64,000 bases of DNA from Myxococcus xanthus. GTDB taxonomy: Bacteria > Myxococcota > Myxococcia > Myxococcales > Myxococcaceae. Below are positions 31,189 to 50,088 of this stretch, piece after piece. Positions within the stretch are counted from its first letter, which is position 1, and the number at the start of each line of letters is the position of its first letter. The translations under genes and the position numbers were made by a program. The stretch covers positions 6,738,001-6,802,000 of the forward strand of contig NZ_CP017174.1 of the NCBI RefSeq assembly GCF_006402735.1, written 5' to 3'. Under the pieces are notes generated by a model, which was not told the DNA's origin, made no database searches, and worked only from the letters and a program-made list of their open reading frames with translations.

Positions 31189-32642
<1,454 letters not shown>

Positions 32643-32646
<4 letters not shown>

Positions 32647-34226
32647 GGCAACCTCTCGAGCTGCAGGGGGATGGGCAGAAAAACGGTGAAGCAGGAGCCT
32701 TCGCCGACCTGGGTGTCCACGTGGAAGCTGCCCCCGTGGTCCTGGACGATGCGGTAGGCAATGGAGAGCCCCAGGCCGGTGCCTTCACCCGGGGCCTTGG
32801 TGGTGAACGACGGCTCGAAGATGCGAGGCAGGTGCTTCTCCTCGATACCCGTGCCGGTGTCCGTCACCGCGAAGAAGCAGCGGTCGCCTTCGCGACCCGT
32901 CACCAGCTTCAGCTTGCCCTCACGCGTGGGCAGCGACTGGAGACCGTTCTGCAGCAGGTTGAGCACCACCTGCGCGAGCTGGCCGGGGTCGCCGTACACC
33001 TTGGGCAGGCCGTCCGCGAGCCCCAGCGACAGCTCCACCGTGGGCATGGACTTGAGCTGCGCGCGGAACAGCACCGCCGCGTCCTCCACGCACTTGGACA
33101 AGTCGAAGGGCCGCCGGTCCTCCACGCGGCTGTGGCGGCTGAACTTGAGCAGGCTCTCCACGATGCGCTTGCAGCGCAGCGCGCTCTCCTCGATGAGGCC
33201 CAGCGACTCCAAATCCGCGTCGCTGCGGCCCGCGTCGCGCGACATCAACTGCGCGAAGGCGAGGATGCCGCCCAGCGGGTTGTTGATTTCGTGCGCCACC
33301 CCGCCGGCGAGCTGCCCCACCGCGGCCATCTTCTCTGTCTCGATGAGCCGCCGCGTCATCGACTGCTCCTCGGTGACGTCCCGGTAGGTGCAGACGACGC
33401 GCTCGTCCCCCGCCATGGGGTAGGCGGCCACCACGAAGGTGCGCCCGCCCTGGCGGACCTCACCCCGCGCGCCCTTGCCGCTCTCCACCGCCGCCGGCAG
33501 CGGACAGCCCGTGCACGGCTCGTTGCGGCCGAAGAGGTAGCGGTAGCACGTGGTGTCGGAGGGAATCTCCTCGATGGAGCGCCCCGCCACGTCCGCGTAC
33601 GCGAGGTTCGCCCGCCGCACCGCGAAGTCCCGCGCGCGCACCACGCACAGCGGCGTCTCCATGCAGTCGAAGGACAGCTCCCACTCGCGCTTGGCCTGGC
33701 TCAGCATGCGCGTGCGCTGGGCAACGCGCTCCTCCAGGTCCGCGTTGAGCAGCTTCAGCTCCGCGTTCTGCGCCTGCGTCACCGTGTAGAGCCGCTCGTT
33801 CTCCGCCTGGAGCGCGTACTGCTCGAAGGCGCTCTTCACCGTCAGCACCAGGTGACTGTCGTTCCAGGGCTTGGAGATGAAGCGGAAGATTTCCGACCGG
33901 TTGATGGCCTCTTCGATGGCCTGCTGGTCCGCCTGCCCCGTCAGCATGATGCGCTGGGCCCGCGGCTCCTGCTGCTTCACCCGGGTAAGGAAATCGACGC
34001 CATTCATCCCCGGCATGCGGAAATCGGAGATGACCACCTCGGGGTGGAATGCCTCCACCGCCCGCAGGCCCTGCTCGGCGTCCGTCGCCGTCTCGATGTC
34101 CCAATCGCCGCGGCGCAGCACCCGGCGGATGGACTTGAGGATGTTCTCCTCGTCATCCACCAGGAGCAGCCGCCCGCGTGGCGATTCGGCCTGCTGACCG
34201 TGGACATATGCGGCTTGAGAACCCAT
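32643..34226 (-). CDS. Histidine kinase with N-terminal receiver and cysteine-bearing PAS domain
   Basis: 527 residues, no membrane segments, so cytoplasmic. Receiver 18-135 (phospho-Asp68 in VVISDFRMPGMNG), a coiled coil about 140-180, a PAS-like domain about 183-285, HisKA 298-365 with His312 (VAHEINNPLGG), and HATPase 390-520 with LNLLQNGLQ, DTGTGI and GEGTGLGL. Three cysteines in the PAS (227, 238, 241 in CYRYLFGRNEPCTGC) could bind a metal or cofactor. Coupled to the downstream NtrC regulator by overlap. Combined receiver-kinase and NtrC pairs are known in M. xanthus (HsfB/HsfA), but identity with that pair cannot be judged here. Confidence 0.93.
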
Positions 34227-34250
34227 GAATTGTTTCCGCCCCTAGACAAG

Positions 34251-34266
34251 TGCAATGGCCCTGCCA
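34251..34266 (-). promoter_or_regulatory. Sigma-54 promoter of the kinase/NtrC operon
   Basis: Minus-strand TGGCAGGGCCATTGCA matches the -24/-12 consensus TGGCACG-N4-TTGCW with one deviation and exact spacing. It predicts a start near 34240 and a 14-base leader containing GGGGCGGAA before the kinase ATG at 34226. Confidence 0.72.
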
Positions 34267-34333
34267 GCAGAAACTCCCTGCCCAACAGTCTGGAATCACG
34301 GGCCTTGACATTTCCGTGGCGTGAAAAAACGCC

Positions 34334-34378
34334 GGGTCTAATTAGACCCATCCCCACCAAATGGGTCAATACAGACCC
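34334..34378 (-). promoter_or_regulatory. Paired palindromes, candidate enhancer for the NtrC-type regulator
   Basis: Perfect 16-base palindrome GGGTCTAATTAGACCC (34334-34349) and a second repeat GGGTC-N6-GACCC (34363-34378). Their centres lie about 100 and 130 bases upstream of the predicted sigma-54 start, the usual place for activator sites. The first is also followed on the minus strand by GGCG and six T, so a terminator role for the upstream gene cannot be excluded. Confidence 0.55.
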
Positions 34379-34395
34379 CGGGTCTTTGACCCGGG
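34377..34395 (-). terminator. Hairpin directly after the diguanylate cyclase gene
   Basis: CCCGGGTC and GACCCGGG form a perfect 8-bp stem with a 3-base loop immediately after the stop codon. It repeats the GGGTC/GACCC core of the neighbouring palindromes and shares two bases with them. Confidence 0.5.
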
Positions 34396-35331
34396 CTAGG
34401 TTCCGAGCGGACCGACCGGGAGCTGGGGATGTAGGCAGATGCGATCCCTGCCGTCCCGTTTGGCCTGGTAGAGGGCCTCGTCGGCCGTCAGGAGCAGCTG
34501 CTCCGGGGTGAGGACGGTGCGGTGGGGGAAGCTGGAAACCCCCAATGAGGCGGTGACTTGCAGGCTGTCCTCCACCTCCAGCCGCAGGGCGCGCAGCTCG
34601 CGGCGGACGCGCTCGGCGACGGTGAGCGCCCCGGTGAGGTGGGTGCGGGGCAGCAGCACCGCGAACTCCTCCCCGCCGTAGCGGGCCACCAGGTCCGTCT
34701 CGCGCACGCCCCGGGTGAGCGCGGCGGCCACCTCGCGCAGCACGCCGTCGCCCGCGGAGTGGCCGTACTTGTCGTTGATTTCCTTGAAGTAATCCAAGTC
34801 CAGCAGGATGAGCGACAGGGCGTCGTCGTAACGCTGGGCGCGGCGGAACTCCTCCCTCAGCCGCTCCTGGAAATGCCGGTGGTTGTGGACGCCCGTGAGG
34901 CCGTCCGTCGACGACAGCCGCTGAAGCTCGCTCACCTGGGTGGCGAGCGCCTCCATCCGAGCCTTCGCGGCCAGGGCGCGATGCACCCGGGCTACCAGTT
35001 CATCCGGCGCCCATGGGTCCAAGATGACCTCAGCGCCGCGGCGCAAGGCCTCCAGCCAGAGGGCCCTGGGTTCGAGTGGGGCCAGGAGCACCACGGGGGG
35101 ACCCACCGGGCCTTCCGCGGGTATCAGGCGCTCGAGCAACCCCACGCTGGCCTGGGCGTCCTCGCCCGGACAGAGCACCACCAGCGATACCTCCCGCGCC
35201 AACCTCGGCACCTCCGGGCCGTGGGCGGTGATTCGGAGGGCGAAATCCTCCGGGCCCAGCGCACGGGCCAACCGAGGCAACGTCGACTGCGAGTCGTCCA
35301 CTACCAGCAGGGTGAAGGGCCTGGAGTTCAC
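34396..35331 (-). CDS. Diguanylate cyclase with pseudo-receiver domain
   Basis: 311 residues from GTG 35331 (VNSRPFTLLVVDDSQ), which has GGGG about five bases upstream; a GTG at 35358 is possible. Residues 5-120 look like a receiver, but the phospho-Asp position reads VVLCPGEDA and the lysine region reads LDPWAPDEL, so it should not be phosphorylated normally. The GGDEF domain (about 135-305) is complete: LSSTDGLTGVHNHRHF, LILLDLDYFKEINDKYGHSAGD and RYGGEEFAVLLP, with an I-site RETD five residues before GGEEF for product inhibition. It should make c-di-GMP from GTP in the cytoplasm. Confidence 0.93.
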   Translation of the reverse strand: MNSRPFTLLVVDDSQSTLPRLARALGPEDFALRITAHGPEVPRLAREVSLVVLCPGEDAQASVGLLERLIPAEGPVGPPVVLLAPLEPRALWLEALRRGAEVILDPWAPDELVARVHRALAAKARMEALATQVSELQRLSSTDGLTGVHNHRHFQERLREEFRRAQRYDDALSLILLDLDYFKEINDKYGHSAGDGVLREVAAALTRGVRETDLVARYGGEEFAVLLPRTHLTGALTVAERVRRELRALRLEVEDSLQVTASLGVSSFPHRTVLTPEQLLLTADEALYQAKRDGRDRICLHPQLPVGPLGT

Positions 35332-47646: not shown

Positions 47647-50088
47647 CTACTCCGCACGCAGGACGACGATGGTTCTTTCCGGCATCCCGTACGTCGGACC
47701 GTTCACTGGTGACGGCATATCAAGCCACGAGTTACCCGTGGACCGGCTGTCCAGGCCCGCCGTCGTGAGATAGGCGGGGCTGTCGAAGTACGCCTGCGTG
47801 TCGATGAGCCGCGTCCACTTGCGGCCTTCGGGCAGCGTGAACTCCACCGCGCGGGGCTCCATGTTGATGAGCACCAGCAGCTCCGGCCCGTAGGACGCGT
47901 CGTGGTAGTGAATCATCAACTGCTTGCTGTCCCACGCCGCCTCGGTGTTCTGCGCGCTCTTCCAGGCCAGCGGCGCGCCCTTGCCATAGTCCTTCGGCGC
48001 GAAGGCGTAGGCGTGCTCCTTGCGCAGGCGGATGGCGGCCTTCACGAACTCGAACATGCGGTGACGTTCGTCGCGCGCCAGGTACGCGCCCCACTGGTAC
48101 CAGTTGAAGGGATTGTCAGACAGCGTGGAGTAGGCGTTGTTGTTGCCCAGCTGCGTGCGCATCCACTCGTCGCCGCCCAGGATCATCGGCGTGCCGTGGC
48201 TGATCATCATCGACATGAAGGCATTGCGAATCATCTGCCGCCGCATGCTCTCCGCGCGCTCGTCGCCAATCGGCCCCCAGCTGCGGGAACGGTTGTGCTC
48301 CTCACCGCTGACCTTGTCGCAGAAGGGGCTGTTCGGTGTGTCACAGCACACCGGGTTCAGCGGACCGCAGCGGTTCTGCTTCTCGTCGTACGCGAACAGG
48401 TCGTACATCGTGAAGCCGTCGTGCACGGTGATGAAGTTCATGGAGTGATACGGGCGGCGGCCATTGCGCTCGAACCACTCCTGGCTGCCATGCATCAGGA
48501 AGCCGCCGTCCACCGTGCCGGGCCGGCCGCACAGCGACCCCTCGTTGGAGTTGAGCTTCCAACCGTCCTGGTTCATGAACGCGCGCCACCAGTCGCGGAA
48601 GCGGCCGTTCCACTCGTACCAGCCATTGCCCGGCTGCGTCTTGGCGTTGGGGAACTCGCCCAGCGGCATGCAGTACCAGCCGCCCGCGCTCCACGGCTCG
48701 GCCATGATGCGGGTGTTGTACTTCTGGAGCACCGGGTCGTCGATGACGTCCTGGAGCACGGTATTGCGCGGGTCGTCCCAGCGGTTGTAGTCGCCGTCGC
48801 GCTCGCCCAGGATAGGCGCCAGGTCGAAGCGGAAGCCGTCCACGTGAAGCTCTTCCACGTAGAAGCGCAGGCTGTCGATGATGAGCTTGCGCGTGGGCCG
48901 GTGGTTGGGGCGCGTCTGGTTACCGACGCCGGTGTTGTTCCAATACGTGCGGCGGTCCGGGTTGAGCGCGTAGTACGCCTGGTTGTCGATGCCGCGGAAC
49001 GAATAGAGGCCAGCCGTCTCCGCGGGGTCCAGGGACTCCAGCGGCTCGCCGGGCATGACGTCATCCGTCTCCAGCTTCTCGCGCCAGAGGCCCCCCTCGC
49101 CGGTGTGGTTGTAGACGACGTCGATAATCACCTCGATGCCGTGCTTGTGGAGTTGCTCCACCATCCACTTGAACTCGTTGATGACCTGGTGCGGCTCCTT
49201 GAAGGCCGCGTAGGACAGCTCGGGCGCGAAGAAGTTGATGGTCTGGTAGCCCCAGTAGCCACCGTCCAGCGGCTTCTCGTGGATGGGCAGCAGCTCCACC
49301 GCGGTGATGCCCAGCTCAGCCAGGTAGGCCGCCTTCTCACCGAAGCCGCGGTAGGTGCCCGGGAAGCGCACGCCGCTGGCGGGGTCCGCCGTGAAGCCCT
49401 TGGCGTGGACCTCGTAGACGATGAGGTCCTGCCAGCCGTGGCCCTGCCAGTTCTCGTCCTGGCGGTTGGCGCGCCACTGCTGCTCCACCTCACCCCACTG
49501 GTAGTCGCCGCTCTTGACGAGGACGCTCTTGGCGGAGGCCGCGTAAGTCACCTCCGTGCGGGCCGGACCGCTGGCCGTGCTGCCCTTGCTCCAGTCGTGA
49601 TCGCGGTGCAGGGCCTTGGAGTACGGGTCCGTGAGCAGCTTGTTTGGATTGAAGCGGTTGCCGTAGACGTCCGCGTCCGCCTTGAAGCCATGGATGGACC
49701 CGGGGAACCACCGCGGGTCGAACTCCCAGTTGGGTCCCCATGCGCGGAAGCCGTAGTGCTGTCCCACGCCCACGCCTTCCACGTAGACGCTCCACACGTC
49801 GCCGTAGCGTGTCATCTCATAGGCGCGCGCCGGGCGGTTGCTCTCCGGGTCTTCGAAGAGCAGCAGCTCCAGCCGGGTGGCGTTCTCCGAGTACAGGGCG
49901 AAGTTCACGCCCTTGTCCACGTAGGTGGGGCCAATCTGGCGAAGGGACTCGATGTCGTCCACCGAGTAGCTCGGGGCCCGAGCATCACTGTGGTACAGCC
50001 GGACGTAGTCGCTCTCGCTACAGCCAGTGATGAACAGGGCGGTGGACAGCGCCGCGCCCACGAGGCGGGACATTCTGGGAGTGCGCAT
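47647..50088 (-). CDS. Lipoprotein GH13 debranching enzyme (GlgX/isoamylase-like)
   Basis: 813 residues from ATG 50088 (MRTPRMSRLVGAALSTALFITGC), a lipoprotein signal; the frame runs on to 50250 without coding sense. CBM48-like domain about 45-150 (VNFALYSENATRLELLLFED), then the isoamylase-type barrel: IVYEVHAKGFT, LGITAVELLPIHEKP, IIDVVYNHTGEGG, nucleophile in VDGFRFDLAPILG, acid in IMAEPWSAGGWYC, and FITVHDGFTMYDL. GlgX/isoamylases cut alpha-1,6 branches. The cytoplasmic relatives lack a signal, so surface or periplasmic debranching is implied. First gene of the leftward arm. Confidence 0.9.
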   Translation of the reverse strand: MRTPRMSRLVGAALSTALFITGCSESDYVRLYHSDARAPSYSVDDIESLRQIGPTYVDKGVNFALYSENATRLELLLFEDPESNRPARAYEMTRYGDVWSVYVEGVGVGQHYGFRAWGPNWEFDPRWFPGSIHGFKADADVYGNRFNPNKLLTDPYSKALHRDHDWSKGSTASGPARTEVTYAASAKSVLVKSGDYQWGEVEQQWRANRQDENWQGHGWQDLIVYEVHAKGFTADPASGVRFPGTYRGFGEKAAYLAELGITAVELLPIHEKPLDGGYWGYQTINFFAPELSYAAFKEPHQVINEFKWMVEQLHKHGIEVIIDVVYNHTGEGGLWREKLETDDVMPGEPLESLDPAETAGLYSFRGIDNQAYYALNPDRRTYWNNTGVGNQTRPNHRPTRKLIIDSLRFYVEELHVDGFRFDLAPILGERDGDYNRWDDPRNTVLQDVIDDPVLQKYNTRIMAEPWSAGGWYCMPLGEFPNAKTQPGNGWYEWNGRFRDWWRAFMNQDGWKLNSNEGSLCGRPGTVDGGFLMHGSQEWFERNGRRPYHSMNFITVHDGFTMYDLFAYDEKQNRCGPLNPVCCDTPNSPFCDKVSGEEHNRSRSWGPIGDERAESMRRQMIRNAFMSMMISHGTPMILGGDEWMRTQLGNNNAYSTLSDNPFNWYQWGAYLARDERHRMFEFVKAAIRLRKEHAYAFAPKDYGKGAPLAWKSAQNTEAAWDSKQLMIHYHDASYGPELLVLINMEPRAVEFTLPEGRKWTRLIDTQAYFDSPAYLTTAGLDSRSTGNSWLDMPSPVNGPTYGMPERTIVVLRAE

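Follow-up and report, generated by a model that had tools for sequence, protein, structure and literature searches.

Paired GGGTC-N6-GACCC dyads as putative HsfA sites upstream of a conserved sigma-54 promoter at the hsfBA operon of a Myxococcus

The window, by which we mean the whole 64-kb stretch of DNA that was analysed, carries on its minus strand a histidine kinase gene followed by a gene for a response regulator, and the two reading frames share 4 bases. Pfam searches assigned to the regulator a receiver domain, an AAA+ sigma-54 interaction domain and a Fis-type helix-turn-helix, the set that characterises an NtrC-type protein; the last of these (HTH_8) is a marginal match, with 22.3 bits against a cut-off of 22.0. 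Both products are at least 99% identical to those of Myxococcus xanthus strain AM003. The HsfBA phosphorelay of M. xanthus (mxan_5362-5365), as presented in the available text of PMC9109919, consists of the same two genes with the same domain order. Its published alleles affect Q98 and Q177 of HsfB and T288 of HsfA (PMC9109919, available text), and the proteins encoded here have Q, Q and T at these positions, with identical numbering. Because the domain order and the published residue numbers agree, the pair is identified by its sequence as hsfBA, encoding the known HsfBA phosphorelay, of a Myxococcus.

All the elements discussed below lie on the minus strand between the end of a diguanylate cyclase (GGDEF) gene at 34396 and the kinase ATG at 34226. 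The features of the locus are as follows.

31189-32646, minus strand: hsfA, NtrC-type response regulator, 485 aa (Pfam Response_reg, Sigma54_activat, HTH_8)
32643-34226, minus strand: hsfB, histidine kinase with an N-terminal receiver domain, 527 aa (Pfam Response_reg, HisKA, HATPase_c)
34251-34266 (read 34266-34251), minus strand: predicted sigma-54 promoter TGGCAGGGCCATTGCA, -24 TGGCAGG and -12 TTGCA, called from the sequence and from 43/43 orthologous upstream regions
34283-34299, minus strand: conserved stretch GTGATTCC...GTTG between the dyads and the promoter; in a few relatives the aligned sequence is IHF-like
34334-34349 (read 34349-34334), minus strand: proximal putative HsfA dyad GGGTCTAATTAGACCC, half-sites kept in orthologues
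34363-34378 (read 34378-34363), minus strand: distal putative HsfA dyad GGGTCTGTATTGACCC, spaced 29 bp from the proximal dyad, called from the sequence and the spacing in orthologues
34377-34395 (read 34395-34377), minus strand: third hairpin CCCGGGTCAAAGACCCGGG, that is CCCGGGTC-AAA-GACCCGGG, with N3 spacing, just past the GGDEF stop codon

The consensus of sigma-54 promoters is TGGCAYG-N4-TTGCW with the core GG-N10-GC, and TGGCAGGGCCATTGCA fits this core. An initial annotation of this DNA had pointed to TGGCAGG-N4-TTGCA just before the kinase gene. The element is indeed there, and the pattern TGG[CT]-N7-TTGC follows the dyad pair in all 43 orthologous upstream regions, the window included. 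Within the 64 kb, TGGCA-N6-TTGC occurs a single time, at the hsfB promoter. The genome also encodes sigma-54 itself (one Sigma54_DBD match, E 3e-64). Counting C34252 as -12, the predicted +1 falls near 34240, which places the centres of the two dyads and of the third hairpin at about -102, -131 and -146. The palindromes that had been proposed about 100 and 130 bases upstream of the predicted start were thus both recovered, as GGGTC-N6-GACCC dyads. In the window, 75 bp separate the centre of the proximal dyad from the downstream -24 element, measured to its first base. The conserved stretch at 34283-34299 sits about 28 bp before that element; we considered it as an IHF site but keep this as a lead and make no claim for it, since the exact consensus was present in only 3 of 43 rows (L028, L029, L046) and the window did not score above shuffled sequences.

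The annotation had also described the sigma-54 contact loop of the regulator as intact. The loop reads GSFTGA, not GAFTGA, so that the description holds in the sense of a working variant: GSFTGA is named among the loop variants that retain activity in the available text of PMC4641369. Among 42 aligned HsfA rows (window included), 38 have GSFTGA, two have GAFTGA and two could not be read. The helix-turn-helix segment GVDRSNFRRLLKQYEV is invariant in all 39 rows whose sequence extends to the DNA-binding end.

Exact GGGTC-N6-GACCC occurs seven times in the 9.3-Mb genome, and two of these copies lie within a span of 45 bp at hsfB; the pattern read backwards occurs 72 times. With one mismatch allowed, the window holds 6 matches where 6.4 are expected, which is no enrichment, so the case for the dyads lies in there being two exact copies and in how well these are conserved. 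When half-sites were counted in 145-bp stretches, those with six copies of GGGTC/GACCC all started between 34251 and 34331, and the maximum elsewhere in the window was four, near 49600.

To follow the region in relatives, we kept 80 of 188 (79 loci) and used the 42 loci with at least 60% HsfB identity (L008-L049); 37 loci with 27-50% identity (L050-L086) were left out of this sample. Together with the window these make 43 rows, from Myxococcus, Pyxidicoccus, Corallococcus, Citreicoccus, Hyalangium, Archangium and MAGs. One record among them, L011, is titled Comamonas sp. KCTC 72670; its hsfBA locus is of the Myxococcus type, with 97% HsfB identity, so mislabelling or contamination is probable.

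With spacings of 27-31 bp allowed, the best dyad pair was 29 bp apart in 35 rows and 30 bp apart in the other 8, and when the range was widened to 17-89 bp, 29 or 30 bp was still best in 42 of 43. A pair score of at least 17 out of 20 was reached by 41 of 43 real sequences compared with 2 of 860 dinucleotide shuffles, counts that come from related species and are not independent draws; the two weak rows, L039 and L040, scored 15 and 16. The distance from the centre of the proximal dyad to the -24 element is 71-75 bp in 39 of 43 rows. In the alignment, the six central bases of the dyads vary freely and GGGTC/GACCC is largely retained. The distant MAGs diverge at most other positions of the promoter.

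The third hairpin behaves differently. The annotation had listed it as another GGGTC/GACCC hairpin at about 146; its position and half-sites are as described, but the N3 spacing makes it a different element from the N6 dyads. Besides the window, 9 of 42 loci have exact GGGTCAAAGACCC; the hairpin is degenerate in Corallococcus and missing from Archangium-like relatives. We therefore rejected it as a standard HsfA site. It is probably a hairpin at the 3′ end of the gene upstream, or else a cluster of half-sites that has degenerated or decayed.

The promoters of the pilY1 genes offered an independent test of the recognition element. According to the available text of PMC9109919, purified HsfA shifts the M. 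xanthus pilY1.1 and pilY1.3 promoters and not that of pilY1.2, and in an hsfA deletion pilY1.1 goes down and pilY1.3 goes up. We built a scoring matrix from 82 hsfB sites in 41 rows, dropping the rows that scored below 17 (L039 and L040). Upstream of pilY1.1 in the same genome, taken as the PilY1 gene bearing DUF4114, it found the dyad AGGTCTCCTGAGACCC (14.4 bits), which precedes the ATG by 141 bp and the sigma-54 element AGGCACGGCATTTGCC by 69 bp. Of 17 pilY1.1-type sequences (L134-L150, with that of this genome), a dyad above 6 bits is present in 14; nine of these reach at least 11 bits, each 69-70 bp before a sigma-54 site, and the remaining three have no dyad above 5 bits. A group of 13 loci (L151-L163), set apart as paralogous by their lower identity of about 32-40%, carries a diverged GTGTC/ACCC-type dyad or none.

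The gene taken as pilY1.3 encodes a PilY1 with a VWA-like start, following the description in the available text of PMC9109919; the domain was read from the translation and has no Pfam match. Its dyad GGGTCCATTCGGACTC scores 11.8 bits and lies 147 bp before a weaker sigma-54-like sequence, AGGCACGAGGTGTGCA. A dyad is present in six of seven pilY1.3 sequences (this genome included), each time at 147 bp. The site is 229 bp before the likely ATG, which places it outside the published EMSA fragments of 120-150 bp (PMC9109919, available text) unless the start annotation differs.

We assigned pilY1.2 through the third minor-pilin paralogue, which adjoins a 1456-aa PilY1-like ORF 37% identical to PilY1.1. 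Strict GGGTC-N6-GACYY is absent from this promoter, and a diverged GTGTC-N6-TACCC there scores 12.4 bits. Because this pilY1.2-type site outscores that of pilY1.3, and HsfA reportedly shifts the pilY1.3 promoter and not that of pilY1.2, the matrix alone cannot separate bound from unbound sites, and we rejected its score as the sole predictor of HsfA binding. Additionally, the pilY1-type promoters (L134-L170 and L176, the latter being the pilY1.2-type promoter of this genome, upstream of genome position 1262172) have a second dyad, CTCGCA-N5-TGCGAG, near the HsfA dyad. It matches at 9-12 of 12 positions in 38/38 sequences, with at least 10 matches in 1 of 125 control stretches, and is probably the site of another regulator.

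Elsewhere in the genome, we found 46 distinct GGGTC-N6-GACYY sites and classified 43, leaving out the three in the window. By a crude rule based on GC at each codon position, dyads of at least 12 bits are non-coding in 10 of 15 cases against a background of 145/1290 (Fisher p 8e-7), and those below 12 bits in 8 of 28 against the same background (p 0.02). The annotation had suggested scanning the genome for such sites upstream of other sigma-54 promoters. At pilY1.1 the dyad precedes the sigma-54 element by 69 bp; 37 of the 43 other sites have no sigma-54-like element (9/12 or better) within about 250 bp. A further dyad in the window, GGGTCCAAGATGACCT at 35015-35030, scores 16.7 bits and lies inside the GGDEF gene, and a similar dyad occupies that place in 12 of 19 readable relatives (L008-L027 without L025). 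We rejected it as an upstream enhancer: it is in the coding region, and its conserved letters coincide with the codons for E-V-x-x-D-P (GAG GTC xxx xxx GAC CC(x)). As the kept letters fall on codons, this dyad probably reflects coding conservation.

Three further genes, chosen since their own upstream regions matched, were followed in 19 genomes of the genus, this one included. The best dyad upstream of a carboxypeptidase-regulatory-like protein gene (L099) reaches at least 9 bits in 18 of 19 and at least 11 bits in 16 of 19. For a gene encoding a receiver-HATPase protein (L124), all 19 reach at least 7.8 bits and 16 at least 11 bits, and a second dyad is found 33 bp away in 15 of 19 genomes. 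The third, L001, is an unknown gene, where the best dyad scores at least 9.2 bits in 19/19 and at least 11 bits in 14/19, with its position shifted in the farther genomes. Among 65 control stretches of 510 bp, mostly coding and taken from the window's first 33 kb, the best score was 7.6 bits and none reached 11. The L099 and L124 genes may belong to the HsfA regulon; the literature that we searched yielded no tie between them and HsfA. In the loci L196-L214, the dyads 33 bp apart lie 280-330 bp upstream of a receiver-HATPase gene in 15 of 19 genomes, which makes this signalling gene a candidate HsfA target. Upstream of the gene for an 827-aa Lon (L095), which we take to be lonD from the length of LonD, the best score was 7.2 bits and the dyad motif was not found. 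This gene, the first HsfA target to be reported, is named as a direct one in the available text of PMC9109919.

The HsfA-shifted promoters of pilY1.1 and pilY1.3 carry the dyad, and three further loci keep dyads across most of the genus sample. GGGTC-N6-GACCC is therefore very probably the HsfA recognition site, as the annotation had predicted for GGGTC-type half-sites. A putative HsfA box at PhsfB is already published: the legend of Fig. 3E in PMC9109919 names such boxes in PhsfB, PpilY1.1 and PpilY1.3, aligned with a consensus. It is silent on the presence of two dyads and their 29-bp spacing, and on the sigma-54 element and how well that is conserved. The literature text that we searched does not give the letters of the HsfA consensus, which is itself drawn in a figure; nor did we find there the paired 29-bp architecture, the hsfBA sigma-54 element or the extra genus-wide sites. 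The text of PMC9109919 credits the consensus used for those boxes to Volz et al. 2012, its reference 23.

From the layout of the region, hsfBA is very probably autoregulated from the sigma-54 promoter. We are largely confident that phosphorylated HsfA, on two dyads 29 bp apart and with looping to sigma-54 polymerase, drives, or at least controls, the operon. In this scheme, HsfB would phosphorylate HsfA, and dimers of phosphorylated HsfA would occupy the two 16-bp dyads, which lie some 100 and 130 bp ahead of the predicted start and whose spacing of 29 bp is nearly three helical turns. Bound HsfA would then loop to the sigma-54 RNA polymerase at TGGCAGG-N4-TTGCA and open the promoter, which would raise HsfB and HsfA. 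We infer the occupancy of the two dyads, the start near 34240 and the activating effect of HsfA on its own operon. The self-activating two-component switch of the initial annotation is thus upheld in its autoregulatory layout, with sigma-54 elements in 43/43 rows and a near-constant spacing of the dyads; its sign, activation, is suggested by geometry.

That sign could be the reverse, with HsfA sitting on the same dyads to repress hsfBA and activation of the sigma-54 promoter left to some other enhancer-binding protein. The rise of pilY1.3 upon hsfA deletion would fit this, as would the repression of myxovirescin production attributed to HsfA in the available text of PMC4902038 and the many genome sites that have no sigma-54-like element nearby. 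On the other hand, pilY1.1 falls in the hsfA deletion and is therefore HsfA-activated (PMC9109919, available text), and its dyad lies 69-70 bp before the sigma-54 site, close to the 75 bp at hsfB and to the 71-75 bp of most relatives. This geometry favours activation, and no dyad for a second activator is apparent when the alignment is inspected by eye; we consider repression of hsfBA unlikely. Still less probable, in our view, is that the dyads belong to another NtrC-type regulator, such as a paralogue or a mixed oligomer (for example HsfA with MXAN4899), and not to HsfA alone. The genome does contain ten further matches to the DNA-binding end of HsfA (E up to 0.01), and lonD has no dyad. The title of Volz et al. 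2012 is said to mention hetero-oligomers. HsfA and MXAN4899 both bind natural-product promoters according to the available text of PMC7910581. Against this, the ten matches share only 34-45% identity with HsfA in that end, conservation of the dyad goes along with that of the HsfA helix in the same loci, and purified HsfA shifts the pilY1.1 and pilY1.3 promoters.

A very improbable reading is that the palindromes are not binding sites and serve to terminate transcription of the upstream diguanylate cyclase gene. On the minus strand, two terminator-like matches were flagged against 0.2 expected. One is the third hairpin, which folds as RNA at -16.2 kcal/mol (z -3.7), and the other is the proximal palindrome together with the GGCGTTTTTT that comes after it; the region also folds strongly as RNA (z -4.4). 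However, the T-run next to the proximal palindrome is found only in the closest relatives, and the N6 dyads with their 29-30 bp spacing are retained far more widely. The dyad also recurs before unrelated genes, including between divergent ones (L099, L133 and L107, by crude gene calls), a position that calls for no terminator. The terminator reading may still apply to the third hairpin on its own.

Returning to HsfA as the protein on the dyads, one code might have two outcomes depending on position. At 69-75 bp before the -24 element it would activate (hsfBA, pilY1.1), and farther away (147 bp, pilY1.3) or where there is no sigma-54 element it would repress, so that a single self-amplifying regulator would swap pilus tips and other surface genes in opposite directions. 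This is a tentative idea, which we hold with more doubt than belief.

In NtrC-type autoregulated sigma-54 promoters such as that of glnA-ntrBC, paired upstream dyads precede a -24/-12 element and the regulator is encoded in its own operon. The hsfBA operon resembles this system in all three respects, and differs from it in the GGGTC half-site, the N6 spacer and the 29-bp pairing, which are not those of the NtrC consensus, and in the N-terminal receiver domain of the HsfB kinase. It is also similar to the Nla28 promoters of M. xanthus, in the same species group, where an enhancer-binding protein has paired sites upstream of a sigma-54 promoter; unlike the tandem-repeat half-site CT(C/G)CG(C/G)AG of Nla28, the putative HsfA site is a GGGTC inverted repeat (PMC7910581, available text, for Nla28). 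In general, the hsfBA circuit appears to be an ordinary, well-conserved and largely expected NtrC-type autoregulated operon, and the understanding of such circuits is unchanged. What the analysis provides is a precise putative recognition rule, GGGTC-N6-GACCC in a 29-bp pair before a sigma-54 promoter, for a regulator tied to pilus function, secondary metabolism and development in myxobacteria, together with a short list of predicted extra HsfA targets that are retained over much of the genus.
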